DNA from: Mageeibacillus sp.
Lineage (GTDB): Bacteria > Bacillota > Clostridia > Saccharofermentanales > Saccharofermentanaceae
NCBI GenBank assembly: GCA_022484595.1
Contig: JAKVLB010000003.1
Coordinates: 62,001-126,000 of the forward strand
Direction of reading: 5' to 3'
DNA: 64,000 nucleotides
Part shown: in pieces, positions 529 to 16,027 of the stretch
Layout of the letters: every line of letters begins with the position of its first letter
How positions within the stretch are numbered: position 1 is the first letter of the stretch
Notes under the pieces: model-generated
The model's input: only the letters and a program-made list of their open reading frames with translations
Database searches by the model: none
Told to the model about the DNA's origin: nothing
Made by a program: the position numbers and the translations under genes

Positions 529-2637
529 TCAGACAGGAATGGTTATACTATGTTTATTCGTGAGCTCATAAGTTCTCTTATCAGGCTGACCAAATCCGAC
601 GTAAAGCTCAACGGTACCGTCGGCAGGCTTCATTTTGCCGGCATCATCAACCAGAATAAAAGCACCTGAAGGAACATCTATTGTAAACTCACACTCAGAA
701 CCAGCCTCAAGCTTGATTCTTCTGAATGCAACAAGTCTTGAATTCAAGACTTCATCTTTATCATCTATAGCTTTTGCATATACCTGCAAAACTTCTGATA
801 TATCACAATCACTCTTGTTTGTTACAGTTACACTGAGCTTGATTCCGTTCTCTATCACATCGGATCGCCCGGAAGAAGACACTGCCTTGACAGATTCAAT
901 CCTGATATCGCCATATGTCAGACCAAAACCAAACGGATACAAAGGATCCTGCTCAAGGAACCTATAGGTTCTGCCCTTCATCGAGTAATCCGTAAAATCA
1001 GGAAGACTTTCAATACTCTTATAGATTGTAACAGGGAGCTTGCCTGAAGGATTGACATTACCGAAAATAACATCTCCGATTGAGCTTCCACCGCATTCAC
1101 CCGGATACCACGCCTGCATAATTGCTGAAGAATGTTCAGACAACAGGTTAAGATCCATCGCACTGCCGGCCATAACTACAACTACTAACGGTTTCCCGCT
1201 TTGTATCGCACAATCTATGAGCTTCTGCTGCGGCTTCGGGAAAGACATGTCAGGCTTGTCTCCGGATGCAAACTGGTTGCCTTCATCTCCTTCTTCACCT
1301 TCAAGAGTCTCATCAAGACCGATGCAGAGAATTACCACATCAGATCTCTCCATTACAGCTCTTGCTTCCGCAAGTCTGTTATACTCACGGGACAGAAAAT
1401 CCGGCTTCTCTCTTCCAAGATCACAGCCTTCCGAGTATAGAATTCTGATATCATCACCGGCAGCTGCTCTAATACCTTCAATAGCAGTAATATATTCTGA
1501 TGCCGTTCCGTAGTAATTACCCATCAAAGCGCGTCTGCTGTCAGCATTTGGACCGATCACAGAAATAACCTTTGTCTTCTCACGGCTAATCGGAAGGATT
1601 CCGTCATTCTTAAGCAAAACTATACTCTCGTCAGCAGCTTTCTTGGAAAGAGCTACGTGTTCCTTAGTCTCGACATCAAGGTAATTGAGATTATCATATT
1701 CAGTGTCTTCAAACATCCCCAGCATATATCTGGTTGTAAACAGCCGAACTGCAGACTCACGGATAACATCCTCAGACACCAAACCCTTGTTGAAAGCCTT
1801 CATTATATAAGCATACGTACAGCCGCAATTAAGATCACAGCCTTTATTAAGTGCCAGTGCAGCACTCTCTTCAGGCTTGTTCGTTATCTTGTGATGCTCG
1901 TGAAAATCACGTATTGCCCAGCAATCAGAAACGAAATGTCCTTCGAAGCCCCATTCGTCACGAATTATATCCTTGATATAAGAATGTGCGCAGCATGGTT
2001 CATCATTGGTTCTGTTGTATGCACCCATTACAGCTTCAACATCTGCCTCCTTGACACACGCCTCAAAGGCCGGGATATAAGTCTGCCGCAAGTCCTTCAG
2101 GCTGCAGATGGCATTGAACCCGTGTCTCAACGACTCCGGTCCGGAATGTACAGCGAAATGCTTAGCACACGCCGCAATCTTCATGTGTTCGCCATCACCC
2201 TGAAGTCCCTTTATAAAACTCACTGCTAATCTTGAGATTAGATATGGATCTTCACCATAAGTCTCCTGTCCTCTGCCCCAGCGAGGATCTCTGAACAGAT
2301 TGACGTTAGGTGCCCAAAATGTCAGGCCCTTGTATATATCGTTATCATTATTCCTGATATACTCGTTATACTTTGCACGAGCCTCTGTAGAGATACAATC
2401 TCCAACCTCGGACATTAACTCTGCGTCAAAAGACGCACCCAGACCGATAGCCTGCGGAAATACCGTTGCGGTCCCGGCTCTGGCAACACCATGAAGGCAC
2501 TCATTCCACCAGTTATACTCCGGTACTCCAAGCCTTCGGATGGCAGGTGAATCAAATCTTAATTGTGAGGACACTTCTTCCACTGTCATTTGTGAAACAA
2601 GTTTCTTTGCTTTATCCTTTGCATCAGATCTGTTCAT
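529..2637 (-). CDS. GH3 glycoside hydrolase, beta-xylosidase-like
   Basis: The 702-residue protein is a family 3 glycoside hydrolase. The N-terminal TIM-barrel domain carries the family signatures YNWWNECLHG near residue 41, RDPRWGRGQETYGEDP near 116, KHF at 159-161 and VSDCWAI, where Asp238 is the expected nucleophile. The second domain follows (KNDGILPI near 345, VVIGLDETLEGEEGD near 435) and a fibronectin III-like domain ends the protein. The YNWWNECLHG and RDPRWGR forms are typical of beta-xylosidases and related enzymes. No signal peptide is seen, so it probably acts in the cytoplasm on imported oligosaccharides, as the adjacent importer suggests. AGGAG lies 8 bases before the ATG. The substrate is inferred; beta-glucosidase or arabinosidase activity is possible. 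Confidence 0.9.
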   Translation of the reverse strand: MNRSDAKDKAKKLVSQMTVEEVSSQLRFDSPAIRRLGVPEYNWWNECLHGVARAGTATVFPQAIGLGASFDAELMSEVGDCISTEARAKYNEYIRNNDNDIYKGLTFWAPNVNLFRDPRWGRGQETYGEDPYLISRLAVSFIKGLQGDGEHMKIAACAKHFAVHSGPESLRHGFNAICSLKDLRQTYIPAFEACVKEADVEAVMGAYNRTNDEPCCAHSYIKDIIRDEWGFEGHFVSDCWAIRDFHEHHKITNKPEESAALALNKGCDLNCGCTYAYIMKAFNKGLVSEDVIRESAVRLFTTRYMLGMFEDTEYDNLNYLDVETKEHVALSKKAADESIVLLKNDGILPISREKTKVISVIGPNADSRRALMGNYYGTASEYITAIEGIRAAAGDDIRILYSEGCDLGREKPDFLSREYNRLAEARAVMERSDVVILCIGLDETLEGEEGDEGNQFASGDKPDMSFPKPQQKLIDCAIQSGKPLVVVVMAGSAMDLNLLSEHSSAIMQAWYPGECGGSSIGDVIFGNVNPSGKLPVTIYKSIESLPDFTDYSMKGRTYRFLEQDPLYPFGFGLTYGDIRIESVKAVSSSGRSDVIENGIKLSVTVTNKSDCDISEVLQVYAKAIDDKDEVLNSRLVAFRRIKLEAGSECEFTIDVPSGAFILVDDAGKMKPADGTVELYVGFGQPDKRTYELTNKHSITIPV

Positions 2638-2677: not shown

Positions 2678-2709
2678 ACAATAATTCGCGCTGTTTTTCT
2701 TGTCATATC

Positions 2710-2757
2710 TTGCTAATGTTTTGCCATATTTTGCTAAGTTACACGTTTTTATAGCAA
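2710..2757. promoter_or_regulatory. Phased TTGCTA-type sites between GH3 and araC-type gene
   Basis: TTGCTA starts at 2710, TTGCCA at 2721 and TTGCTA at 2731, so the copies are 10-11 bases apart. An inverted copy, TAGCAA, lies at 2752-2757. The same hexamer recurs upstream of the sugar-binding protein gene and of the xylulokinase operon. A monomeric AraC-type DNA-binding domain reads two adjacent major grooves, so this spacing fits binding by the adjacent regulator. The assignment is inferred. Confidence 0.45.
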
Positions 2758-2781
2758 TTAGAGACAAACCTAGGATTGCTT

Positions 2782-2811
2782 TTGACTAATTATGAATTTA
2801 CAATTGATTAT
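2782..2811 (+). promoter_or_regulatory. Possible promoter of the AraC-type regulator
   Basis: TTGACT at 2782-2787 and GATTAT at 2806-2811 are separated by 18 bases and lie about 33 bases before the start codon at 2844. The -35 match is good and the -10 is weak. Confidence 0.4.
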
Positions 2812-2843
2812 AGACATATCAAACATCTATGGAGGATCTCATA

Positions 2844-3779
2844 ATGCAGTTCAAAGACAATACTGTACCTGGCAATTATCAGCAGCCAATCAGAAATTTT
2901 GTTGGAAGAATTGTCAGTGACTTCGTTGAAGAAGTTGATTTTGTACCGAATTCCAATTTAAGAATTTGGTACAACAATAAAGCTGAGGATTATCCGGCAC
3001 ACAGGCACTCATCTCTTGAGATAGCAATTCCTATGGAAGGAAAATACAAATATGTATTTGATGACAGAACAGTTATTCTGAATGAAAAGGAAATACTGAT
3101 AGTACCGCCAAATTCTTTACACAAGATTACCGGAACTCATACAGGTATTCGCTTCATATATCTGTTTAAGATTGATTTTATGAAATCTTTTTTCGACTAT
3201 TCCGATTTTGAGAATCTTCTAAAAGAGCCGGTAATTATCAACAGCGAGACCTATCCTGACACCTACAACAAAATATATGAGAAATTCATGGAAATCAATA
3301 ATCTTTATTTCTTCTATACAACAACCATAAAGGAGATTCCTATATTCTCTGCACTTATGTCCGTAATTGGACTGCTTGTAAAACCTGAATATACAGAGGA
3401 CATGATAGTTCCGCCGAACGCAAAGCAACGCGAAGTATACATCAAGTTCAAGAACCTGACAGAGTGGCTTAATCTTCATTATCAGGACGACATAACAATG
3501 GATGAGGCCGCAAATTTTATAGGATATTCGAAGTATCATTTTGCAAGGCTGTTTAAAGAGTATTCCGGTATGACATATTGCGATTATCAGGTATCCCTGA
3601 AAATGAAATGTGCCGCCGGGCTGCTCGCTGACACCGATATATCTATAGCTGATGTTGCATTCAAATCAGGATTTAACAATATAACTTCCCTCAGCAGAAA
3701 TTTCCAGAAGTTATATAACTGCTCTCCGTCTGTATACAGGAATCGCATCAGACGCAAGAAAGCTTCACAGCGCAGCTGA
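2844..3779 (+). CDS. AraC-family transcriptional regulator
   Basis: The 311-residue protein has an N-terminal cupin-like sensing domain (YPAHRHSSLEIAIP, then PNSLHKI) and a C-terminal AraC-type double helix-turn-helix. The first helix pair is in MDEAANFIGYSKYHFARLFK and the second in SIADVAFKSGFNNITSLSRNF, ending with the usual NCSPSVYR. The start is placed at 2844 rather than the in-frame ATG at 2829, because GGAGG at 2831-2835 is correctly spaced only for the later ATG. It is transcribed away from the GH3 gene and sits next to the sugar importer, so it is probably the local activator of these genes in response to a sugar or oligosaccharide. The inducer is unknown. Confidence 0.9.
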   Translation: MQFKDNTVPGNYQQPIRNFVGRIVSDFVEEVDFVPNSNLRIWYNNKAEDYPAHRHSSLEIAIPMEGKYKYVFDDRTVILNEKEILIVPPNSLHKITGTHTGIRFIYLFKIDFMKSFFDYSDFENLLKEPVIINSETYPDTYNKIYEKFMEINNLYFFYTTTIKEIPIFSALMSVIGLLVKPEYTEDMIVPPNAKQREVYIKFKNLTEWLNLHYQDDITMDEAANFIGYSKYHFARLFKEYSGMTYCDYQVSLKMKCAAGLLADTDISIADVAFKSGFNNITSLSRNFQKLYNCSPSVYRNRIRRKKASQRS

Positions 3780-3918: not shown

Positions 3919-4782
3919 TCAGGATTTGACACCACCGAGTGAAACACCTTCAACAATGTATTTGGAAAGAATTACATAGACTACAATCAAAGGCAATACA
4001 GTGAGTGACAGTCCAAGATAAACTGAACCATACTCTGTCTTGTAGATATCACCTCTGAGAAGGCTGATCATAATTGGAAGCGTATACTTCTCCTTATCCG
4101 TAAGGAGTACAAGAGGAGTAAAGAGGTTATTCCAGCTTGACACGAATGTAAAGATAGCCTGAGTTGCAATTGCCGGCTTCATAAGCGGCAACACAATCTG
4201 ATTGAATATTCTGAACTCTCCGGCACCATCAATTCTCGCGGACTGAACGATTTCCATAGATAACGCAGCCTGGAGATACTGTCTCATAAAGAATACCATC
4301 ATAGGTGATGCAATAGCAGGAAGAATGAGAACCAGAAGGTGGTTCGTCATATGAACCTTATATATCATCTGATAGAAGCCGATCATTGTTACCTGTGCAG
4401 GAATCATCATGACACCCATGATAAAACTGAAGAATGCATTGCGAAGCTTCCATTCATATGCAGTAAGTGCATATGCCGTAAGTGAAGAAAAGTATACAGC
4501 AAGACCGGTAGTTCCGATTGAAACCAAGGCGGAGTTCAAAAAGCCCGTAGCCGGATGGAAATCCTTACCTGTAAGCACTCCCCAGTTCTTAACTATATTT
4601 CCGATAGGATTCTTTGAAAACAATGATATGGCGTGCTGCTCAATCTCTGAAGTACTTCTTGTAGCATTAATAAACATTATCAGAAACGGCATTATACTCA
4701 AAACCGATAGAATGACACATACCACATAGATAATAACCTTCATAGTTTTAGAGGTGCCTGTTTTTCTTGATAAATCACTCAT
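3919..4782 (-). CDS. ABC sugar importer permease, MalG type
   Basis: This 287-residue inner-membrane permease belongs to the carbohydrate uptake CUT1 group. Hydrophobic segments begin near residue 14 (VIIYVVCVILSVLSIMPFLI) and about six are visible. The EAA loop that contacts the ATPase reads SARIDGAGEFRIFNQIVLPL near residues 178-197. The C-terminal VEGVSLGGVKS is typical of MalG-type proteins. It lies 2 bases after the MalF-type gene, so the two are translated together and form the channel heterodimer. No ATPase gene is nearby. CUT1 systems in Firmicutes often share an MsmK-type ATPase encoded elsewhere, which is the likely case here. Confidence 0.93.
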   Translation of the reverse strand: MSDLSRKTGTSKTMKVIIYVVCVILSVLSIMPFLIMFINATRSTSEIEQHAISLFSKNPIGNIVKNWGVLTGKDFHPATGFLNSALVSIGTTGLAVYFSSLTAYALTAYEWKLRNAFFSFIMGVMMIPAQVTMIGFYQMIYKVHMTNHLLVLILPAIASPMMVFFMRQYLQAALSMEIVQSARIDGAGEFRIFNQIVLPLMKPAIATQAIFTFVSSWNNLFTPLVLLTDKEKYTLPIMISLLRGDIYKTEYGSVYLGLSLTVLPLIVVYVILSKYIVEGVSLGGVKS

Positions 4783-4784
4783 GA

Positions 4785-5762
4785 TCAGTTACCCCCCGCT
4801 ATTTTATTGCGCATTTCACTTCTCATTTGCTGTCTCTTAAGTTTGCGCATCTTATCTTCATCCTTATCTCTAAGAATCACAAACAGAATAGCTGAGAAGA
4901 ACATAATAATTACAAACATAATCAAACTTGCAGCTGCAGCATTGTTATACTGATAGCTTCCGCTAAATGCCTGTTTGTAAATGAATATACTTGTTGTTAT
5001 CGTTCCGTTGTTAGGACCACCAAGCAGGAAGAGCTGCGGAACATCGAACATATTCAGACCGCCGATAAGGCTCGTTACAAGAACAAACAAGAGAATTGTT
5101 CTGATACACGGCAACGTAACTCTGAAGAATGTCTGAGTCTTGCTCGCGCCATCAAGCTCGGCAGCTTCAAATATCTCAGGGTTAATTCCGATTACACCGG
5201 AAATCAGCATTACCATCGTGTAGCCGTACCACATCCAGAACTGGATGAAAGCCACGATAGCTCTGGCATTACTTTTGCTGACCAGAAAGTTAATAGCAGT
5301 CTTTGTCATACCAAGTCTGCTCAACAAATCATTAACAGGACCTTTTGGATAGCCGAACAATGAATTAAATAGAATAGCAACTGTGGCAGCCGTGATAATG
5401 TTCGGCATATAGAATAAAACTTTGAACAGTCCCTGACCTTTAATTTTTGTTCTTCTGTCTGTAAACCATGCTGTAAGCAGCAATGCCAGTCCGATTTGCG
5501 GAATGAAATTGACTATCCAAATTAAAAATGTGTTGCCCAATGCAGTTCTAAATATTTTATTGGATAATACACTTTTAAAATTGACAAAAATGTCGTCAGT
5601 TTCAAAATGAATATCTGTACGGCCTAGGCCCTTCAGATCAGTAAAACCGATAATTATCGTGTAAAGAATCGGATAAAGAGAAAAAATCAAGAATGTCAAA
5701 GCGAATGGTATCGAGAAAATGTATCCGTATTTGGCATAATTAACAAGTTTTCTGCTTTTCAT
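4785..5762 (-). CDS. ABC sugar importer permease, MalF type
   Basis: This 325-residue permease is the partner of the following MalG-type protein. It has a hydrophobic segment near residues 13-36 and five more between about 85 and 300. The EAA loop EAAELDGASKTQTFFRVTLP lies at about residues 199-218. The highly charged C-terminal tail (RDKDEDKMRKLKRQQMRSEM) is cytoplasmic by the positive-inside rule. A strong stem-loop with a T-run lies between this gene and the upstream binding-protein gene, so it is probably expressed by read-through at lower level than the binding protein. GGAGGTGGAG precedes the start. Confidence 0.93.
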   Translation of the reverse strand: MKSRKLVNYAKYGYIFSIPFALTFLIFSLYPILYTIIIGFTDLKGLGRTDIHFETDDIFVNFKSVLSNKIFRTALGNTFLIWIVNFIPQIGLALLLTAWFTDRRTKIKGQGLFKVLFYMPNIITAATVAILFNSLFGYPKGPVNDLLSRLGMTKTAINFLVSKSNARAIVAFIQFWMWYGYTMVMLISGVIGINPEIFEAAELDGASKTQTFFRVTLPCIRTILLFVLVTSLIGGLNMFDVPQLFLLGGPNNGTITTSIFIYKQAFSGSYQYNNAAAASLIMFVIIMFFSAILFVILRDKDEDKMRKLKRQQMRSEMRNKIAGGN

Positions 5763-5846: not shown

Positions 5847-7253
5847 TCAGTCAACAGTTACATCAAGTGTACCTGCAACAGTATCCTTGAACGCCTGGAT
5901 AGCATCATCCCTTGAAAGTTCTCCGGATGTATACTGTCTGACTGCATCACGCCATGCTGTGTTGATTGTCTCATCATACTGCGTGAGGTTGGAGCCGTTT
6001 GCATAATCGTTAGCAGGAATAAATACGTCAAACATGTTCTGACCGCCGAGGAAGTCGAGAGTACCGTCTGACATCTCCATGACCGTACCGGAAGCAACAG
6101 CATCCTTTGTACCGTCTTCACTCATCAGGCCGTTAGCCCACATATACTGAAGTCCGTCCTTAGTGCAATCAAGTGTAATCCAGTTGATAAGCTCAGCAAC
6201 GCCTTCCTTCTGCTCTGTGTCCTTGTTAGCAAGGAGCCATGTGCCGCCCCAGAAGAAGCCGACCGGTGGCTTACAAACTGCCCAGTCACCAGCTGTGTCG
6301 CCACAGTTAGAACCGATTGTATAGTTAATGAGCCATGCAGGTCCGAAGAAGCAGAATACAGGCTTCTCGCCTTCATCTCTCATATCAGCAAACCAGCCTT
6401 CTGACCAGTCCTGAGTCTGATTGGAATAACCATTCTCGGTAAGCTTCATAGACAAATCGAGGAAATCCTCACGCTCAGTAGGGATATTGAGGGCGCCATC
6501 AACAATCCAGCCGGAAGAAGAACTGTTCTCAACTGAATGCCAAATGTCTCCGTCTCCTGAAACAATTGCATAGCCCTTTCCCTTAAGAGTCTCTGCAGCT
6601 GTAAAGAAGTTATCCCAGCCAGGTCCAGAAACGAGATTCGCAATCTCATCAGGATCGTCAGTACCGAAAGCATCCTTTGCAATAGAGCGTCTGTAAATCA
6701 TAGCTCCGCCTGTAGCCTGATAGCCAAGAGCAACAACATCGCCGTCTCTTGTTCCGATATCTACGGAATACTGAGCTATCTTAGCAGCATCAATCTCTGC
6801 ATCGACATCAATTCCAAGGTCTTTGTATGTAGCAGCATATCCGGATGCATCACCCTGAGTATACTTGAGTACAAATGCAGACTCTGCGCAATAGATGTCA
6901 GGCGCATCTTCTCCGCCGGCAGCTAATGCCTGGTCAAGAGCAGGCTGATATGCGCCGTCAGTTGTAGCAATAACTGTGGTCTTAACGTCATACTTCTCTC
7001 CAAATTCAGGGTGGAGTTCGATGTACTTCGCAACCATGTTAGGAACCTCATCTGTAAAAGCCCAGAGGTTGATAACTTCCTTGTCGCCACTACCTGTGTC
7101 GGCACCTTCTGTCGCAGCAGAAGCACCGCTCTCTGCGCTATTTCCTGCTGTGGCTGTTGTTGAACCTGACTCATTGGTTGATGTTGATGTACAACCAGTT
7201 GCAAGTGCAGCAATCATAGCTAGTGAAAGAACGCTGGCAATAACTTTTTTCAT
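5847..7253 (-). CDS. ABC sugar importer, extracellular solute-binding lipoprotein
   Basis: The 468-residue protein begins with a lipoprotein signal, MKKVIASVLSLAMIAALATG followed by Cys21, giving the lipobox LATGC. A Ser/Thr/Gly-rich linker runs to about residue 55. The rest matches the family 1 extracellular solute-binding fold (INLWAFTDEVPNM, then PDIYCAESAFVLKY near 125 and WGGTWLLANK near 335). It would capture sugar outside the membrane and deliver it to the two permeases downstream. Context with GH3, xylulokinase and transketolase suggests a pentose-containing oligosaccharide, which is inferred. GGAGG lies 8 bases before the ATG. Confidence 0.93.
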   Translation of the reverse strand: MKKVIASVLSLAMIAALATGCTSTSTNESGSTTATAGNSAESGASAATEGADTGSGDKEVINLWAFTDEVPNMVAKYIELHPEFGEKYDVKTTVIATTDGAYQPALDQALAAGGEDAPDIYCAESAFVLKYTQGDASGYAATYKDLGIDVDAEIDAAKIAQYSVDIGTRDGDVVALGYQATGGAMIYRRSIAKDAFGTDDPDEIANLVSGPGWDNFFTAAETLKGKGYAIVSGDGDIWHSVENSSSSGWIVDGALNIPTEREDFLDLSMKLTENGYSNQTQDWSEGWFADMRDEGEKPVFCFFGPAWLINYTIGSNCGDTAGDWAVCKPPVGFFWGGTWLLANKDTEQKEGVAELINWITLDCTKDGLQYMWANGLMSEDGTKDAVASGTVMEMSDGTLDFLGGQNMFDVFIPANDYANGSNLTQYDETINTAWRDAVRQYTSGELSRDDAIQAFKDTVAGTLDVTVD

Positions 7254-7283: not shown

Positions 7284-7299
7284 TGAATCGGCCGATTCA
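7284..7299. promoter_or_regulatory. 16-bp perfect palindrome near the binding-protein transcription start
   Basis: TGAATCGGCCGATTCA is its own reverse complement. It lies 31 bases before the binding-protein start codon, next to a possible minus-strand -10 (TACATA, plus-strand 7301-7306). A dimeric repressor bound here would block transcription, but no LacI- or TetR-type regulator is encoded nearby. The protein that would bind it is unknown. Confidence 0.4.
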
Positions 7300-7348
7300 A
7301 TATGTATTGTTATGTTATCCAAAATTAGCCAATCTTTCCTTACTTATC

Positions 7349-7445
7349 TTGCTACACTTTGTACATTTATTGCTAATTTTGCTATTTGCTGGACTCTTTT
7401 TGCTCACTTTGCCCTATACCATTTATTTGTTCGTCTTTCTTGCTA
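7349..7445. promoter_or_regulatory. Phased array of TTGCTA-type sites
   Basis: Exact TTGCTA copies start at 7349, 7370, 7379 and 7440. Variants start at 7359 (TTGTAC), 7386 (TTGCTG), 7400 (TTGCTC) and 7409 (TTGCCC). Most are 9-11 bases apart, so they fall on one face of the helix. The array begins about 50 bases upstream of the possible binding-protein transcription start and also precedes the divergent DUF624 gene. It shares its hexamer with the GH3/AraC intergenic region. Confidence 0.5.
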
Positions 7446-7449
7446 TAAT
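7444..7449 (+). promoter_or_regulatory. Candidate -10 element of the DUF624 gene
   Basis: TATAAT lies 33 bases before the DUF624 start codon and directly abuts the last TTGCTA copy. No good -35 is present at 17 bases upstream, which fits control by an activator. Confidence 0.4.
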
Positions 7450-8839: not shown

Positions 8840-9781
8840 TTAACCAAGTTTCTCCCTTATGGCTCTGGCTATTCCTTTATAATCAAGTCCATATTCAGCC
8901 ATAAGGCCTGATGCCGTGCCGCTCTGACCGAACACATCGTTAATTCCGATCTTGCTTACAGGCGTAGGCATATGCTCGCTGAGAACATCGCAGACAGCAC
9001 TTCCCAATCCGCCAATAACGGAATGCTCCTCACATGTAAAGACACGTTTCTTACCTTTGGAACAATCAAGAACAGTGTCACTGTCAATCGGCTTAAGTGT
9101 ATGAACATTTACCACGCAGACTTCAATGCCCTCTTTTGAAAGCATATCTGCTGCCAGCAAGGCTTCAGAAACACATACTCCGTTAACAAAAATTGTTGTA
9201 TCTGCGCCCTGTCTCAGAACGACAGCCTTTCCAAGTTCAAATTTGTAGCCTGGGTCATCATTTACAATCGGAACCGGAGAACGACCAAACCGCAGATAAA
9301 ACGGCCCGTCAGTCAAAGCAGCTGCCCGGACTGCAGCCCTGGCTTCTATGTCGTCACACGGTACTACAACTGTCATACCGGGAATTACGCGCATTAATGC
9401 AAGATCCTCGATACACTGGTGTGTTGCTCCATCCTCTCCCACAGTAATACCCGCGTGAGTTGCACCTATCTTGACGTTTAGATGAGGATAAGCAATGGAA
9501 TTACGCACCTGTTCATAGTTTCTGCCTGCAACAAACATCGCAAATGATGATATGAACGGAATCTTTCCACATGTTGCCAGACCTGCGCCGATTCCTGTCA
9601 TGTCAGCTTCTGCAATTCCGCAGTCTATATGACGTGAAGGAAATTTCCTTTTAAATACCGATGTCTTCGTAGCACCGGCAAGATCGCAGTCAAGCACTAC
9701 AAGCTGTGGCAGTTCATCACCCAATTCGGCTAATGCATTTCCGTAACTGTCTCTGGTTGCTATCTTTATATCGCAATTCAT
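8840..9781 (-). CDS. Transketolase, C-terminal subunit
   Basis: This 313-residue half of a split transketolase contains the pyrimidine-binding and C-terminal domains. Visible signatures are HIDCGIAEADMTGIGAGLA near residue 52, the region THAGITVGEDGATHQCIEDL near 108 and the late EEHSVIGGLGSAV near 250. Together with the N-terminal subunit it would form the thiamine-diphosphate enzyme that moves two-carbon ketol units between pentose, heptose and triose phosphates in the cytoplasm. Its ATG overlaps the stop of the N-terminal subunit gene (ATGA), so the two are translationally coupled. Location after xylulokinase fits feeding of xylulose 5-phosphate into the pentose phosphate pathway. Confidence 0.93.
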   Translation of the reverse strand: MNCDIKIATRDSYGNALAELGDELPQLVVLDCDLAGATKTSVFKRKFPSRHIDCGIAEADMTGIGAGLATCGKIPFISSFAMFVAGRNYEQVRNSIAYPHLNVKIGATHAGITVGEDGATHQCIEDLALMRVIPGMTVVVPCDDIEARAAVRAAALTDGPFYLRFGRSPVPIVNDDPGYKFELGKAVVLRQGADTTIFVNGVCVSEALLAADMLSKEGIEVCVVNVHTLKPIDSDTVLDCSKGKKRVFTCEEHSVIGGLGSAVCDVLSEHMPTPVSKIGINDVFGQSGTASGLMAEYGLDYKGIARAIREKLG

Positions 9782-10629
9782 ACCGACCCCACCTCTGATT
9801 TCTCAAGCGCTGATATTCTTGCGTCAATCTCCTGAACAGCAAGTTTATACTCTTCATCGTTTGGAGCTTTGCCATGCCATCCGGCCTGGTTTTCCATAAA
9901 CGAGACACCTTTACCTTTTATCGTGTGCATAATTATCGCTGTAGGCTTGTCAGTACACGAATGCGCAGCCTTGAATGCACCTCTTATCGCGTCAAAATCA
10001 TGTCCGTCGATGCAAATAACGTTAAAATTAAACGCTTCGAATTTCTTGTCAATCGGATAGACATTACAAACATCCTCAACTCTTCCGTCAATCTGAAGAC
10101 CGTTGTTATCAACAATAACAGTCAGATTATCCAGCTTGTGAGCACCTGCAAACATTGATGCCTCCCAGATCTGACCTTCCTCAATCTCACCGTCGCCCAA
10201 AAGGGCATACACATGATATGACTTTCCGTCAAGCTTTGCATTCAATGCCATTCCGCACGCGGCAGAAAGTCCCTGACCAAGAGAACCCGTACTCATGTCA
10301 ACACCCGGAGTCTCTGTCATACAAGGATGTCCCTGCAGATAGGAACCAAGTTTTCTGAAAGTCTTCAAATCTTCCACCGGAAAAAATCCGCGATTGGCCA
10401 GTACAGAATATAGCCCCGGTGACGTATGTCCCTTTGACAGGACAAATCTGTCGCGATCAGAATTGCGCGGATTCGCTGAATCAATATTCATTTCTTCAAA
10501 ATACAGATATGTAAACATATCCGCTGCTGATAATGATCCGCCCGGATGTCCTGACTTTGCACTGTAAACGGCTGTGACTATGCCCTTACGTACATTCTCA
10601 GCCATAATCTTAAGTTGCTTGTTATTCAT
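9778..10629 (-). CDS. Transketolase, N-terminal subunit
   Basis: This 283-residue subunit carries the diphosphate-binding half of the cofactor site. It shows SGHPGGSLSAADMFTYLY near residue 24, the substrate-contacting KGHTSPGLYSVL near 66, and the metal/diphosphate motif LLGDGEIEEGQIWEASM near 143 with VDNNGLQIDG further on. Split transketolases of about 280 and 310 residues are common in Firmicutes. GAGG lies 8 bases before the ATG. The gene follows the FucI-type isomerase gene after a 115-base gap that holds a stem-loop, so transcription is likely shared with, or reduced relative to, the isomerase. Confidence 0.93.
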   Translation of the reverse strand: MNNKQLKIMAENVRKGIVTAVYSAKSGHPGGSLSAADMFTYLYFEEMNIDSANPRNSDRDRFVLSKGHTSPGLYSVLANRGFFPVEDLKTFRKLGSYLQGHPCMTETPGVDMSTGSLGQGLSAACGMALNAKLDGKSYHVYALLGDGEIEEGQIWEASMFAGAHKLDNLTVIVDNNGLQIDGRVEDVCNVYPIDKKFEAFNFNVICIDGHDFDAIRGAFKAAHSCTDKPTAIIMHTIKGKGVSFMENQAGWHGKAPNDEEYKLAVQEIDARISALEKSEVGSV

Positions 10630-10675
10630 TATATTATCCTCATGTTGTTTTCAAATTTTTTACTTTCAAACCACA

Positions 10676-10704
10676 CCCGCATCCTGATGGCTGTCAGATG
10701 CGGG
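10676..10704 (-). terminator. Stem-loop between isomerase and transketolase genes
   Basis: CCCGCATCCTGA pairs with TCAGATGCGGG, with one bulged base and a TGGCTG loop. There is no T-run directly after it on the minus strand (GTGTGGTTTG follows). It may act as a partial terminator, an RNA-processing signal or an mRNA 3'-end stabiliser. Confidence 0.45.
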
Positions 10705-10744
10705 AGATGGCTGTTTAATGAAAGTCTTTATACACTGAGTAATC

Positions 10745-12241
10745 TCAGTTAAAAGGATTCTCTTCCGGATATCTCTCTCCTGCCGGATGATTGTATCCGA
10801 TATCTTCAGAAGGAATTCCAAGATAAGTAAAGAGGTTATACATAGCTTTTCCATAGTGTCCAAAGGCAACTGCACCATGGTGAGGGAAGTTCTTCTGGAT
10901 GAGATAGTATCTGTAGAATCTGCCCATCTCAGAAATAGCGAATACGCCGATAGACCCGAACGAACGAGTTGCAACAGGCAATACCTCTCCCTGCGCCACG
11001 TAAGCACGAAGCTTAGCGTCTGAAGTAGACTGAAGTCTGAAGAATGTTATGTCTCCCGGTACGATATCGCCCTCAAGTGTGCCGTTTGTTACTTCTTCCG
11101 GCAGACTTCTCGCCATAATCATCTGGTTCTTCATAGAACATGCGGATAACTTGCTTGAGCATGTATTGCCGCAGTGGAATCCCATAAACGTATCCGTATG
11201 CTTGTAGTTAAAGACACCCTTGATTGATTCTTCGTACATATCCGCAGGTACAGAATTGTTGATGTCAAGAAGAGTAACTGTGTCCTCTGAAATACAATAT
11301 CCGATGTACTCACTTAACGCACCGTAAATGTCGACTTCGCAGGAAACCGGTATACCCATTCCGGTAAGACGGCTGTTGACATAGCAAGGAACAAATCCGA
11401 ACTGAGTCTGGAATGCAGGCCAGCATTTGCCTGCAACAGCAACATATTCACGTGAACCCTTATGGGCTTCTATCCAGTCAAGAAGTGTAAGCTCATACTG
11501 AGCAAGCTTGGGAAGAATTGTCGGTTTGTTGTTGCCGCCTCCAAGTTCTGCCTCCATCTCCTTTACCTTTGCAGGTATGCGGGAATCTCCCGCATGCTTG
11601 TTATAAGCTTCGAAAAGGTCAAGCTCTGAATTCTCTTCTATTTCAACACCAAGGTTGAAAAGAGGACCGATAGGTGCATTGCACGCCATAAAATTGAGCG
11701 GCCTCGGGCCAAAACTGATTATCTTCAACTTTGACAATGCGTCAAGAGCACGTGCAACCGGAACAAAATCCTTGATCATGTCTGCACATGCGTCTGCAGT
11801 GCCCACAGGATATTCCGGAATATATGCCTTTATTCCTCTTAGCTTGAGATTGTAGCTGCAATTAAGCATACCGCAGTATGCATCGCCTCGTCCGCCTACC
11901 AGGTTATTCTGTGATTCTTCCGCTGCTGCGCAGAACATCACAGGACCGCCGAACTCCTTTGCCAACATTGTCTCCGCAATCTCAGGGCCGAAATTGCCGA
12001 GATAAACGCAAAGAGCATTACAGCCGTTCTCACGTATATCGGCGAGAGCCTTTCTCATGTGAATCTCGCTCTCAACAATACAAATCGGACACTCGTAAAT
12101 CTCGTCAGATCCATACTTCTCAGTATAAGCCTTTACCAGAGCCTTTCTTCTGTCTACTGAAAGACTCTCCGGAAAGCAGTCGCGGCTGACCGCAACAATA
12201 CCGATTTTTACATTTGGTGCGTTGAATAATTTTGATGCCAT
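10745..12241 (-). CDS. L-fucose isomerase-family sugar isomerase
   Basis: The 498-residue protein resembles the FucI/AraA superfamily of metal-dependent aldose-ketose isomerases. The N-terminal part (VKIGIVAVSRDCFPESLSVD) and the middle region (ALCVYLGNFGPE, FGGPVMFCAAAEE) match the usual Rossmann-like domains. CEVDIYGALSEYIG near residue 300, LLDINNS near 325 and GFHCGNTCSSKL near 350 supply Glu, Asp and His in the family's metal-site positions. Its neighbours are xylulokinase, DUF4867 and transketolase. There is no fuculokinase or aldolase, so the substrate is more likely a pentose such as xylose or arabinose than fucose. That is inference. GGAGG lies 8 bases before the ATG. Confidence 0.82.
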   Translation of the reverse strand: MASKLFNAPNVKIGIVAVSRDCFPESLSVDRRKALVKAYTEKYGSDEIYECPICIVESEIHMRKALADIRENGCNALCVYLGNFGPEIAETMLAKEFGGPVMFCAAAEESQNNLVGGRGDAYCGMLNCSYNLKLRGIKAYIPEYPVGTADACADMIKDFVPVARALDALSKLKIISFGPRPLNFMACNAPIGPLFNLGVEIEENSELDLFEAYNKHAGDSRIPAKVKEMEAELGGGNNKPTILPKLAQYELTLLDWIEAHKGSREYVAVAGKCWPAFQTQFGFVPCYVNSRLTGMGIPVSCEVDIYGALSEYIGYCISEDTVTLLDINNSVPADMYEESIKGVFNYKHTDTFMGFHCGNTCSSKLSACSMKNQMIMARSLPEEVTNGTLEGDIVPGDITFFRLQSTSDAKLRAYVAQGEVLPVATRSFGSIGVFAISEMGRFYRYYLIQKNFPHHGAVAFGHYGKAMYNLFTYLGIPSEDIGYNHPAGERYPEENPFN

Positions 12242-12265
12242 AGGTCATTCCTCCGTTTTATTTTT

Positions 12266-12904
12266 TTATTTATCTATATCTGTGTTTACACCGATGAGCC
12301 CCGGGAAATGTCCCTTCTCACTCTCGGCATCCGGATGGCAAATAAGCCACTTGTTCTTTGCAGTCAATAATTTGTCCTCATCATTTCCTTCGAAAGACAC
12401 AGCCCTGTGTGGTTGCTCAAGGTCATAATTTGTACCGGCAGGAAGAACAACGCCAACCATAAAGCCTTCGCCGTCAACTCCACATGGCGCGTAATGAAGC
12501 GTTGTAGCATATATCTCAACTGCTGTCCCTTTGTGAATTCTGAATGCCTCCATCTTGGATGTGTCGTAATGGAAATCATTTGTAACATCCTGCCTTAATC
12601 CGAGAAGGAGAATGCAATCAGTAGCACATATATTTACCTCTGAAGATCTGTGATACTCAACTGCGTTAAGAACCGAATTATGTCCGGCACAATATCCGGT
12701 CTCGAGAGCAAGCTCTCCGCCGAAAATTCTGTCAAGAGCAACGGCTTCCGAAGCTTTTTCAAGAGAATCCACCGACGGCTTATATTCCACGCCATCGGGG
12801 ATCTCTATGTTACCGAGCGCATCGATAACAGGACCGAAGTCCATATTTCCTATAATCCGTCCATATCTGCGGAACCTATCTGAATGCTGTTCAAAAATTA
12901 CCAT
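12266..12904 (-). CDS. DUF4867 family protein
   Basis: The 212-residue protein matches DUF4867 as I know it from clostridial sugar operons. Key stretches are EYHRSSEVNICATDCILLLG, YDTSKMEAFRIHKGTAVEIY and TTLHYAPCGVDGEGF. The His/Glu-rich central part looks like a cupin-type barrel (KGTAVEIYATTLHYAPC), consistent with a sugar-handling enzyme, but no reaction is established. The start is placed at 12904, not the in-frame ATG at 12922, because GGAGG is correctly spaced only for 12904. The start overlaps the xylulokinase stop (ATGGTAA), so translation is coupled. A role in preparing or opening the sugar substrate of the isomerase is inferred from position only. Confidence 0.8.
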   Translation of the reverse strand: MVIFEQHSDRFRRYGRIIGNMDFGPVIDALGNIEIPDGVEYKPSVDSLEKASEAVALDRIFGGELALETGYCAGHNSVLNAVEYHRSSEVNICATDCILLLGLRQDVTNDFHYDTSKMEAFRIHKGTAVEIYATTLHYAPCGVDGEGFMVGVVLPAGTNYDLEQPHRAVSFEGNDEDKLLTAKNKWLICHPDAESEKGHFPGLIGVNTDIDK

Positions 12905-14361
12905 AACCCTGCCTCCATACACATAGGATAAAGTTTACTGAATTCCATATATCTGTCATTATAGCGGGATACAAGCAACGGATCCGGTCTGACTGTGACC
13001 TGTTTCTTAACGATTGCATCACATGCCGCCTTAACACTCTTGTATTCACCGCATGAAACTGCAGCAAGTATCGCTCCTCCGAGAGCCGGACCTTCATCGT
13101 TCTCGGTCTGAAGTAGTTCTATATTAAGGACATTGGAAACTATCTCGCACCAAAGTCTGCTCTTGGCGCCTCCGCCACAGATGCTGGAACGGGTTATCTT
13201 CACTCCCATTTTTGCGGCAGCCTCAAAAGAATCCCTGAGTCCGAAAGCTACTCCCTCAAGAACCGCCTGAGTCATATCCTCCCTGACAGTATCCATAGAC
13301 ATGCCGATAAACATTGCTCTGCAATCCGGATTGTTCTTCGGCGACCTCTCGCCCATAAGATATGGCAGGAAAAACACTTTATTATTGCCTAACTGCTTTA
13401 TCTCGCTCTGTTCTGCTTTAAAATTCGTGGCTTTGAGTATATCCTCAACCCACCACTTATTGCAGCTGGCGGCACTGAGCATACATCCCATCAGATGATA
13501 TCCTCCATCCGCATGGTCAAAACTGTGAAGAGAATTGTTCTCATCAGTTCTGAATTCATCGGATGATATAAATATCGTACCGCTGGTCCCGAGCGATATA
13601 TTGCACTCCCCGTTACCGATTGTGCCGGTTCCGATGGCAGCGGCCGCATTATCTCCGGCTCCCGCAACTATCCTGCAGCTTTTGTTGATGTTCAGCTGTT
13701 CAGCAAGCTCAGGAAGAATATTACCTATTGTCTCACAGCTCTCATATACCTTGGGAAGCCATTCCTTCTTTATTCCGACAATCTCGCACATCTCATCAGA
13801 CCATCTGCGTCTCCTGCAATCAAAATACAGCGTACCCGACGCGTCAGATACATCTGTCGCAAATACACCGCTCATTCTGTATGCCAGATAGTCCTTCGGA
13901 AGAAGAATCTTGCTGATCTTTTCATAATTATCCGGTTCGTTCCTCTTCATCCAAAGAACCTTCGGAGCAGTAAAGCCGGCAAATGAGATATTTCCTGTAT
14001 ATTCGGAAAGCTTCTTCTTCCCTATAACATTGTTAAGATAATCAGACTCATGCGATGAACGTCCGTCATTCCATAGAATTGCAGGTCTGATTACGACTCC
14101 ATCACTGTCCAGCGCAGTAAGTCCGTGCATCTGGCCGCCGAAACTGATACCTGCAATCTGCTGACCGTCAAAATCCTTGATAAGCTTTGCTATACCTACT
14201 ATTGATTTGATATACCAATTCTCAGGATTCTGTTCTGACCATCCCGATTGTGGGAATGAAACCGGATATGTCTCGGACACAGTGTTAAGAATATGTCCTT
14301 TGCCGTCCATCAGCAGCAGTTTTACCGCTGATGTTCCTAAATCGACACCAATGTAAAGCAT
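12898..14361 (-). CDS. xylB: Xylulokinase (FGGY carbohydrate kinase)
   Basis: The 487-residue protein is an FGGY-family kinase that phosphorylates a sugar with ATP in the cytoplasm. It begins MLYIGVDLGTSAVKLLLMDG, the phosphate-1 motif. Xylulokinase-type substrate residues are seen in GISFGGQMHGLTALD near 78 and RPAILWNDGRSSHE near 97. The ATP site appears in ISLGTSGTIFISSDEF near 250 and SICGGGAKSRLWCEIVSNV near 395. The start at 14361 is chosen because GGAGG lies 8 bases upstream; the in-frame ATG 21 bases earlier has no ribosome binding site. It is the first gene of the operon with DUF4867, the isomerase and transketolase. Confidence 0.9.
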   Translation of the reverse strand: MLYIGVDLGTSAVKLLLMDGKGHILNTVSETYPVSFPQSGWSEQNPENWYIKSIVGIAKLIKDFDGQQIAGISFGGQMHGLTALDSDGVVIRPAILWNDGRSSHESDYLNNVIGKKKLSEYTGNISFAGFTAPKVLWMKRNEPDNYEKISKILLPKDYLAYRMSGVFATDVSDASGTLYFDCRRRRWSDEMCEIVGIKKEWLPKVYESCETIGNILPELAEQLNINKSCRIVAGAGDNAAAAIGTGTIGNGECNISLGTSGTIFISSDEFRTDENNSLHSFDHADGGYHLMGCMLSAASCNKWWVEDILKATNFKAEQSEIKQLGNNKVFFLPYLMGERSPKNNPDCRAMFIGMSMDTVREDMTQAVLEGVAFGLRDSFEAAAKMGVKITRSSICGGGAKSRLWCEIVSNVLNIELLQTENDEGPALGGAILAAVSCGEYKSVKAACDAIVKKQVTVRPDPLLVSRYNDRYMEFSKLYPMCMEAGLW

Positions 14362-14426
14362 GTTGGCAGCCTCCGTTCGCAAGAGTTTACAGAATTAATA
14401 CTATAAGAAAAATCGCAAATATGTAT

Positions 14427-14454: not shown

Positions 14455-14486
14455 ATTTTCGTCGGAATAAACAAATTAAACACTTA

Positions 14487-14492
14487 TTGCTA
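14487..14492. promoter_or_regulatory. TTGCTA site upstream of the xylulokinase operon
   Basis: A single exact TTGCTA, in the same orientation relative to the gene as the copies upstream of GH3 and the binding protein, lies about 33 bases upstream of the possible -35. The rest of 14362-14608 is AT-rich and shows no gene. Confidence 0.35.
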
Positions 14493-14608: not shown

Positions 14609-16027
14609 TCAATTATTGCTATTTTGTTCATCAATACTTTTCCACTTGACAAAAGCAATTCTTAACATGAAAACAATACCTCGAAAAGTAAGTTCTATTC
14701 CCATTGCTACCCATATTCCGACGAGGCCGTACCCGGCAATCAGAAGATAAGACAAAGGTATCCTCACTGCCCAAAGAGACAGCAGTGACATGAGACTTGC
14801 TGCCACCGTATCTCCTGCACCGCGAAGCGCACCTTCGGCTATTATGGATGCTCCGTAGAACGGTTCGGCAAAAAGTTCATATCTTAATACAGTAACGCCG
14901 AGCGATGCTACCGCTGCGTCGCTTGTCAGAAAAGAAAAGACCTTCGGACAGATAAAAAACATTATGGTTCCAAGAATCAGCATCAGCGCCATTCCAAAGA
15001 AAATTATCGTCCATGCGAAATTTTTCGCGAGCTTGGACTTGCTTGCTCCGACACTCTGTCCGACGGCTGTTGTAGCTGCGCTTGCCATACCATAGGCAGG
15101 CATATAGCAGAAGCTCTCCGCGGTAACTGCCAGAGAATTGGCGGCAATTGCAACGTTGCCAAGAGGTGCCGCAATATGGGTGGTCATAATCATAGCGCCG
15201 GAAGTGACCATCTGAGTGAATGCAAGTGGAACGGACAGTCTCGCAGTCAAAAGCATTGTATTGCGGGATATTCTGATTACTGTATCCCTCTTGATTTTCA
15301 GCGTTTCGTATCGAAAAGCAGCGTAGCAATACAGTATCACGGCAGACACAGACCAGGCAAGACATGTTCCGAGTGCGGCACCGGCAACACCGAGTCCTGC
15401 ACCGGGACAACTAAAGGTTACACCGAATACGGTATGCTCGCCGCCGGGATATATAAGAAAAAAATTGAATATAATATCCAGCAGTGACATTGTCGAGAAT
15501 AAAACAGCGGGCAGCTTCATTGAACCGGTAGCCTGAAGAGACTGTCCTGCATGATAATTCAGAGCGTCTATAGGAGCGAACACCTCATATATTATGAAAT
15601 AAGTAGCGGCTGATTCCCTGATTGAATCGTCCGCTCCCAACCATATGGGCAGATACGGTCCTATAAGAAGTGCCGCAAAGGCAATAACAAATCCTGCGGC
15701 GACAGAAATAACAGAACCCTGTGCAAAAAGATTTCTCGTCTCATCGGATTTTCCCGCGCCCGTCTTCTGTGCGAGCTGTATCGCAATTCCAGTGATAACT
15801 GCATAAAGCAGCCCGTCCAGAAGCCACGTGGTCGATGCGACTATTCCTATTGAAGCCGAGGCGTCAGCTCCAAGTTTGCCAACCATTGCGGCATCAATAT
15901 ACTGCATCAGTATCATGGTAAGCCTGGAAAGTATCGCCGGAACACTGAGGCGCCGGACAAGACCAAGCTTGCCTTTGAGACTCAACGGCCTGTCACTTCT
16001 TATAGCAGCAGTAATTTCAGATTCCAT
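14609..16027 (-). CDS. MATE-family efflux transporter
   Basis: The 472-residue protein has about twelve membrane segments and the MATE (multidrug and toxin extrusion) layout. The N-lobe contains VPAILSRLTMILMQYIDAAM and VGKLGADASASIGI near residue 55; the C-lobe repeats the fold from about 245 onwards (MVTSGAMIMTTHIAAPLGNV). Such proteins export small cationic or aromatic compounds using a Na+ or H+ gradient across the cell membrane. The substrate cannot be told from sequence. It is apparently transcribed alone. The only ribosome binding site seen is GAGG 11 bases before the ATG. A second, distinct MATE gene lies at 22887-24251. Confidence 0.92.
   Translation of the reverse strand: MESEITAAIRSDRPLSLKGKLGLVRRLSVPAILSRLTMILMQYIDAAMVGKLGADASASIGIVASTTWLLDGLLYAVITGIAIQLAQKTGAGKSDETRNLFAQGSVISVAAGFVIAFAALLIGPYLPIWLGADDSIRESAATYFIIYEVFAPIDALNYHAGQSLQATGSMKLPAVLFSTMSLLDIIFNFFLIYPGGEHTVFGVTFSCPGAGLGVAGAALGTCLAWSVSAVILYCYAAFRYETLKIKRDTVIRISRNTMLLTARLSVPLAFTQMVTSGAMIMTTHIAAPLGNVAIAANSLAVTAESFCYMPAYGMASAATTAVGQSVGASKSKLAKNFAWTIIFFGMALMLILGTIMFFICPKVFSFLTSDAAVASLGVTVLRYELFAEPFYGASIIAEGALRGAGDTVAASLMSLLSLWAVRIPLSYLLIAGYGLVGIWVAMGIELTFRGIVFMLRIAFVKWKSIDEQNSNN

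Follow-up and report, generated by a model that had tools for sequence, protein, structure and literature searches.

A conserved two-box operator at three sugar-gene promoters and the AraC-type regulator that very probably reads it

Hexamers resembling TTGCTA recur upstream of three groups of sugar genes in the window, the whole 64,000-nucleotide stretch of DNA analysed in this study, and the locus raises the question of what these words mark, which protein reads them and to what effect. The gene order at the locus is GH3, AraC, two permeases, solute-binding protein, DUF624, two transketolase halves, Fuc-type isomerase, DUF4867 and xylulokinase (xylB), in a source genome of 1.92 Mb. Coordinates of the features are listed in Table 1. 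The Fuc-type isomerase and DUF4867 genes (10745-12241 and 12266-12922) share an operon with xylulokinase and the split transketolase, and a classical xylose isomerase was absent among the scanned window proteins.

Table 1. Features of the locus and of the related GH43 promoters (site scores in bits of the operator motif)
Feature	Position	Strand	Details
GH3 glycosidase, beta-xylosidase-like	529..2637	-	Pfam; top-ranking NCBIfam names are beta-xylosidases, none reaching its cut-off
Possible GH3 -10, TATTGT	2678..2683	-	15 bp from site A; weak hexamer
GH3 operator site A (proximal)	2699..2714	+	CTTGTCATATCTTGCT, 16.2 bits; second-best match of the window
GH3 operator site B	2720..2735	+	TTTGCCATATTTTGCT, 12.9 bits; 21 bp from site A; matched by the 21-bp pair pattern
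AraC-family regulator: cupin N-terminal domain, two helix-turn-helix motifs	2844..3779	+	Pfam, predicted fold, ortholog-consensus start
Two importer permease genes	3919..5762	-	Pfam BPD_transp_1 in each
Sugar importer solute-binding protein	5847..7253	-	Pfam SBP_bac_8
Predicted importer operon -10, TAACAT	7312..7317	-	20 bp from site A
Importer operator site A (proximal, over the -35 place)	7338..7353	+	CCTTACTTATCTTGCT, 12.9 bits
Importer operator site B	7359..7374	+	TTGTACATTTATTGCT, 16.6 bits; 21 bp from site A; highest score in the window
Probable weaker third importer site C	7389..7404	+	CTGGACTCTTTTTGCT, 10.0 bits; 30 bp from site B; three-site arrays in relatives too
DUF624 extended -10 (TGnTATAAT)	7440..7449	+	TTGCTATAAT; contains the TTGCTA of 7440; site score -0.4
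Pentose operon: xylB, DUF4867, Fuc-type isomerase, two transketolase halves	8840..14382	-	
Single operator site upstream of the xylulokinase operon	14476..14491	+	TTAAACACTTATTGCT, 14.6 bits; third-best match of the window
GH43 genes preceded by the pair (other genomes)	L176, L177, L178, L179, L180, L183, L185, L188, L190, L191, L192		

The original prediction had described a helically phased array of hexamers, mostly 9-11 bp apart, and all of its hexamers were found at their coordinates. TTGCTA was not enriched across the window, with 30 copies observed on both strands and 36.3 expected. The 228-bp gap between the solute-binding protein and DUF624 genes holds four copies on the plus strand (shuffle mean 0.23; none of 3000 shuffles reached four), the GH3/AraC gap holds two (P ~0.02) and the xylB gap one (P ~0.06). 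The phasing proved weak as worded: the real steps are 10, 11, 9, 7, 14, 9 and 31 bp, and the coherence of the eight hexamer positions, tested on positions that the original prediction had itself chosen, was R = 0.57 with P = 0.07 at 10.5 bp, P = 0.005 at 10.0 bp and P = 0.93 at 11 bp. The exact regularity is instead a 21-bp repeat of a longer two-box site, at 2699/2720 and 7338/7359.

This site was learned by expectation-maximisation on a non-redundant set of 30 promoters taken from the first 20 relatives, the window being left out. A first, 14-bp motif obtained from 300-bp xylB upstream regions was dropped because of coding contamination (the TTGCTA at 14616 is the end of the upstream MATE gene), and for the final motif the xylB regions were trimmed to 170 bp and the pseudocounts raised. 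The final motif is bipartite, TTaTACAaaTnTTGCT, and 16 bp long; 27.0 of its 29.9 weighted sites lie on the strand that reads plus in the window, and on the gene strand the operator reads TAGCAAnATnTGTATA. When all 127,970 window positions were scored, the top five (7359, 2699, 14476, 7338 and 2720; 16.6 to 12.9 bits) all fell in the three named promoters, while 20 shuffled windows gave a mean of 1.75 matches as strong as these, and at most 4.

As the unit of recognition, the hexamer held for only part of the list. Six of the 13 listed are sites of at least 10 bits, those with TTGC at 2710, 2731, 7349, 7370, 14487 and 7400 (16.2, 12.9, 12.9, 16.6, 14.6 and a weaker 10.0 bits, respectively), and the other seven score below 10. 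The hexamer at 7379 (8.1 bits) overlaps importer site B; those at 2721, 7359, 7386, 7409 and 7440 each score below 5 bits, TTGCCA at 2721 falling within the first box of GH3 site B; and the inverted copy at 2752, with only 5.8 bits, could not be upheld as an operator. The copy at 7440 was likewise rejected and assigned to the extended -10 of DUF624. In clade L036-L045, TTGTTATAAT precedes DUF624 in seven of the eight importer/DUF624 gaps, which lack an operator site. On the sequence evidence gathered here, the hexamers mark a genuine operator of which TTGCTA is one half: it forms the box farther from the promoter, read as AGCAA on the gene strand, in a predicted bipartite operator of 16-17 bp.

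The sites share one orientation relative to the downstream gene at GH3, importer and xylB, as had been proposed, and have the opposite one relative to AraC and DUF624. Multiple tandem sites do occur at the importer, in keeping with the suggestion that several units could bind there side by side. The further proposal that one local AraC protein controls GH3, the importer, DUF624 and the pentose operon stands as far as a shared operator at GH3, importer and xylB, conserved together with the regulator, is concerned; its DUF624 part found no support, there being no fixed geometry: in gaps that have sites, the last of them lies anywhere between 20 and 198 bp from the best DUF624 -10.

Relatives of the AraC protein were sought in 148 whole genomes, and the stretches around all 60 places found were taken. 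Full-length relatives were present in 40 genomes of the same genus at 62-69% identity, and 20 more were found at 40-51%. One stretch (L119), a short contig without a visible neighbouring gene, was left out, as were L040 and L043 from the importer count, their contigs beginning inside the importer gene; the AraC alignment omits L118 (249 aa). Orthologous promoters lacking the hexamer had been named as the outcome that would speak against a shared operator, and the result was mostly favourable: sites of at least 12 bits on the expected strand were found in 55 of 59 GH3/AraC, 46 of 54 importer and 16 of 19 xylB promoters (window and training loci included), counts that are not independent as the relatives share ancestry. 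Shuffled promoters gave means of 0.6 of 59, 0.5 of 54 and 0.2, respectively. Outside the window and the training loci the site was present in 34/38 GH3/AraC, 35/35 importer and 9/11 xylB promoters. Among stretches L086-L105, also outside the training set, all 20 GH3/AraC and all 16 importer promoters carried a site of at least 12 bits, and where AraC is only 40-51% identical (L106-L125) the same held for 14 of 18 and 19 of 19. Sites of this strength numbered 181 on the expected strand versus 3 on the other. They were missing from the GH3/AraC gap in L113 (11.98 bits), L123, L124 and L125, and from xylB in L046, L123 and L124.

Eleven of the 25 same-genus genomes without a close AraC relative have the isomerase, and nine of these isomerase loci were fetched. 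No site of at least 13 bits was found upstream of isomerase/xylulokinase in eight of them (seven with xylB, one without), which form a weak control with other gene order, one contig ending 148 bp upstream and two loci with another AraC-type protein nearby; two stray matches were kilobases distant. At the ninth locus (L173) the contig carries the importer with its pair of sites and stops before the AraC place.

The start of the regulator at 2844 is preferable to the mechanical start at 2829, as the ortholog consensus begins at that Met. Pfam identified HTH_18 (2.8e-19) and AraC_binding (8.2e-7) in the protein. Its C-terminal domain contains two helix-turn-helix motifs and has PDB matches to RamA, SoxS, MarA and AdpA, as in the AraC/XylS family, and its N-terminal cupin, as in the AraC subgroup, matches 1xja and 2arc, structures of the dimerisation domain of AraC, with a TM of 0.56-0.63 by target length. 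An AlphaFold2 model built with 27 aligned proteins had a mean pLDDT of 84; in it the cupin resembles the arabinose-binding domain of E. coli AraC and the double helix-turn-helix matches SoxS, MarA and AdpA, while the pTM of 0.55 makes the relative placing of the domains unreliable.

The distance from the top operator site to the -10 of the AraC gene was recorded in 31 gaps (those of L046-L055 and L086-L105, plus window positions 2736-2828). It was 42-43 bp in 18, 31-32 bp in nine and 1 bp in three, the two commonest distances differing by about one helical turn; in the window it was 63 bp, measured from site B, which was chosen by hand. It is possible that the operator also regulates the AraC gene itself in a phased manner.

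Promoter geometry was most regular at the importer. Among 54 importer promoters, 24 showed spacings of 31+29 bp, 12 had a single 21-bp pair and nothing more, and another 12 lacked a pair; of the remaining arrays, three (window included) combine 21 bp with 20 or 30 bp and three have other forms, so that inter-site spacing differs between clades. The distance to the -10 was constant, a TANNNT lying exactly 20 bp from the edge of the proximal site in 45 of the 46 importer promoters with a site, including that of the window, and the lone exception (L124) also fits 20 bp if its weaker proximal site is used. A TANNNT at this distance places the importer site at about -40, with its end over a poor -35. 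Of 57 GH3 promoters, 11 had a gap of 15 bp and 13 one of 20 bp, and other values were common; TATAAT stands at the equivalent 15-bp gap in nine of ten loci of clade L036-L045. The xylB gaps peaked at 15 and 29 bp (8/19 each). A fixed class II distance of 20 bp was thus found at the importer only, and not at the window GH3 promoter (15 bp) or at xylB, and with gaps varying at the latter two, the importer is the one promoter for which class II action has good support. Near the predicted start, the importer mRNA leader contains a hairpin (GAATCGGCCGATTC) at 7285-7298 on the minus strand; hairpins of different sequence occur at about the same leader place in relatives such as L036, L046, L048 and L051, and are unclear in L106 and L108. 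The leader hairpin is possibly a conserved 5' stabilising stem.

Most likely, the locus encodes an AraC-type switch that would turn on genes for xylan-derived sugars. We consider it very probable that the AraC protein binds the bipartite operator, with two subunits head to tail at GH3 and the importer, and activates the importer in class II fashion on a sugar signal. What the sequences establish is the motif with its conservation and spacing, the geometry at the importer, how rare the pair is elsewhere and its company of xylan-type genes; we infer the regulator as the binder, its activating role, its ligand and any role of a third site. The two helix-turn-helix motifs of each subunit would fill the two boxes, about one helical turn apart, and at GH3 and the importer the two subunits would be spaced by 21 bp. 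Where the proximal site of the importer overlaps the poor -35, bound protein would hold sigma factor and RNA polymerase, and the weaker third site may extend the array; a single site would serve the xylB operon. The signal would probably be a xylo- or arabinoxylo-oligosaccharide or a pentose held in the cupin domain.

Among other explanations, the one that fares best, though improbable, is that the AraC-type protein uses its sites mainly for repression or looping, like araO2/araI1 without arabinose, with activation secondary. The 15-bp gap at GH3 in the window and in clade L036-L045, which lays the proximal box wholly over the -35 place, would suit a repressor, and araI1 also works in the E. 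coli repression loop according to the excerpted account (PMC4760080). The importer promoter argues otherwise, having a poor -35 and a geometry equal to that of class II activation. In clade L036-L045, which retains AraC and the GH3 site, the eight importer promoters examined reach no more than 0.3 to 7.7 bits on the expected strand, an absence that counts against the reading preferred here. Against repression, all eight carry the near-consensus TTGACG-17-TAAAAT, as expected if loss of an activator had been compensated. Those of L036-L039 have a match of 11.9-15.9 bits on the opposite strand. The importer promoter of this clade also bears an AGAAAACGAAAACA stretch, which we take to resemble a catabolite-repression (cre) site.

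That a different regulator, rather than the adjacent AraC protein, binds the sites appears less probable again. Four more AraC-type proteins are encoded in the source genome, and linkage alone is no proof of binding; against this, AraC adjoins at least one of its window neighbours in 59 of the 60 stretches, with the sites in those gaps, two-box sites repeated in the same direction are a pattern of the AraC family, and among the 20 window proteins scanned with Pfam only this regulator carries a DNA-binding domain. There is hardly any likelihood that the hexamers arose by chance in promoters rich in T or are themselves promoter elements, extended -10 boxes for example, which is true of 7440 and probably of 7386, 7409 and 2752 and is refuted for the main sites by the motif of the relatives, the spacing, the strand bias and the rarity of the pair in the source genome.

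Binding by the adjacent AraC protein, the preferred explanation, was followed into the rest of the genome and into other genomes using the 21-bp pair. With up to 2 mismatches, the pair occurs in the 1.92-Mb source genome only at GH3 and the importer, and a backward control gave 0 matches. A single site with 3 mismatches was rejected as a genome-wide search, as it gave no discrimination there (79 matches versus 86 in the control). In a blind, genus-wide search of 85 genomes the pair (at most 2 mismatches) gave 81 matches versus 55 for the backward control: 23 at the AraC locus, 11 before GH43 genes and 47 at neither, the last being about the number that the backward control leads one to expect. 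Of the 24 matches with at most 1 mismatch, 14 were at the AraC locus, five before GH43 genes and five elsewhere. Three of the matches elsewhere lie inside a thiamin pyrophosphokinase gene (L184), between a deaminase and a DHH gene (L182) and without an annotated gene close by (L189). The other two, L181 (genome G013) and L193 (genome G021), are close 21-bp pairs behind a gene of 1070-1116 aa without a Pfam match; genes for a GntR-type regulator and a mannitol dehydrogenase follow in G021.

The GH43 genes preceded by the pair were assigned by Pfam in seven cases and by 80-99% identity to these in the other four, and the two GH43 sequence groups compared are ~62% identical. Six pairs face forward as at the importer (L176, L177, L185, L190, L191 and L192), and in the three measured (L176, L177 and L185) a TACTAT stands at 37 bp as at the importer, with the -10 20 bp from the site. 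The other five (L178, L179, L180, L183 and L188) are inverted; four of them were measured and have -10 candidates at distances of 28-40 bp. Related GH43 genes thus bear the same 21-bp pair in opposite orientation in different clades. GH43 was not found in the source genome with the Pfam model, which was positive in 5 of 14 control genomes. Members of the GH43 family usually act as beta-xylosidases or arabinofuranosidases, and given these activities the pair before GH43 genes fits a xylan regulon.

A bolder, tentative reading, which we regard as possible and rather unlikely, is that the regulator uses three-site head-to-tail arrays whose spacing was reset between clades by about one helical turn (21+30, 21+20, 31+29 or 21), the proximal site staying locked 20 bp from the -10, and that GH43 promoters flipped between class II and class I-like layouts. 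If it were true, AraC-type dimers with flexible linkers, or higher-order chains, would tolerate whole-turn changes, and the genus would be a natural record of operator re-engineering.

Taken together, the comparisons are best read as a new regulon, well supported and ordinary among those of AraC type, whose predicted operator strikingly resembles araI. Among the best-matching titles of a literature search, none on this operator was noticed, and no paper was found that joins AraC, xylosidase and TTGCTA. The analysis defines, closely enough for testing, the operator and regulon of a xylan-oligosaccharide-type system in one bacterial genus. The natural variants in spacing and orientation could be used to probe how strictly AraC-type activators need helical phasing.

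The araI1-araI2 layout, a 21-bp direct repeat with a site at about -40, appears to be in use here in a quite different genome. At E. coli araBAD, as at 2699/2720 and 7338/7359 in the window, two-box half-sites stand as direct repeats 21 bp apart, and their distal box is TAGC. Both araBAD and the window importer have the proximal half-site at the -35, and the distance from TAGC to the -10, which we take to be TACTGT at araBAD, is 37 bp in both (E. coli K-12 sequence). The second box and the inner bases differ from araI: only the TAGC box is clearly shared, and the matrix scores araI1 at -8 bits. Three-site arrays and one-site promoters also occur in this genus, unlike at E. coli araBAD.

Other members of the family offer partial parallels. 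RamA, in one report (PMC8811837), is placed at about -41 where it acts on a class II promoter, and at a class I promoter it faces the other way, at about -71.5; similarly, the importer site lies near -40 and some GH43 orthologs carry inverted, more distant sites, but RamA is described there as a single-domain monomer, whereas the present regulator has a cupin ligand domain and tandem sites. At AggR-dependent promoters a site to -10 distance of 22 bp is best and 21-23 bp is used, according to PMC6392122. The fixed distance, 20 bp here, is comparable; unlike here, a single site suffices at those promoters, and consensus and biology differ. Finally, in a Caldicellulosiruptor study (PMC8579813), the AraC-family regulators AxuRS, XylQ and PecR are predicted for alpha-xyloside and pectin genes, and the regulator described here resembles them as a local AraC-family regulator of a sugar importer recognised by comparative genomics.
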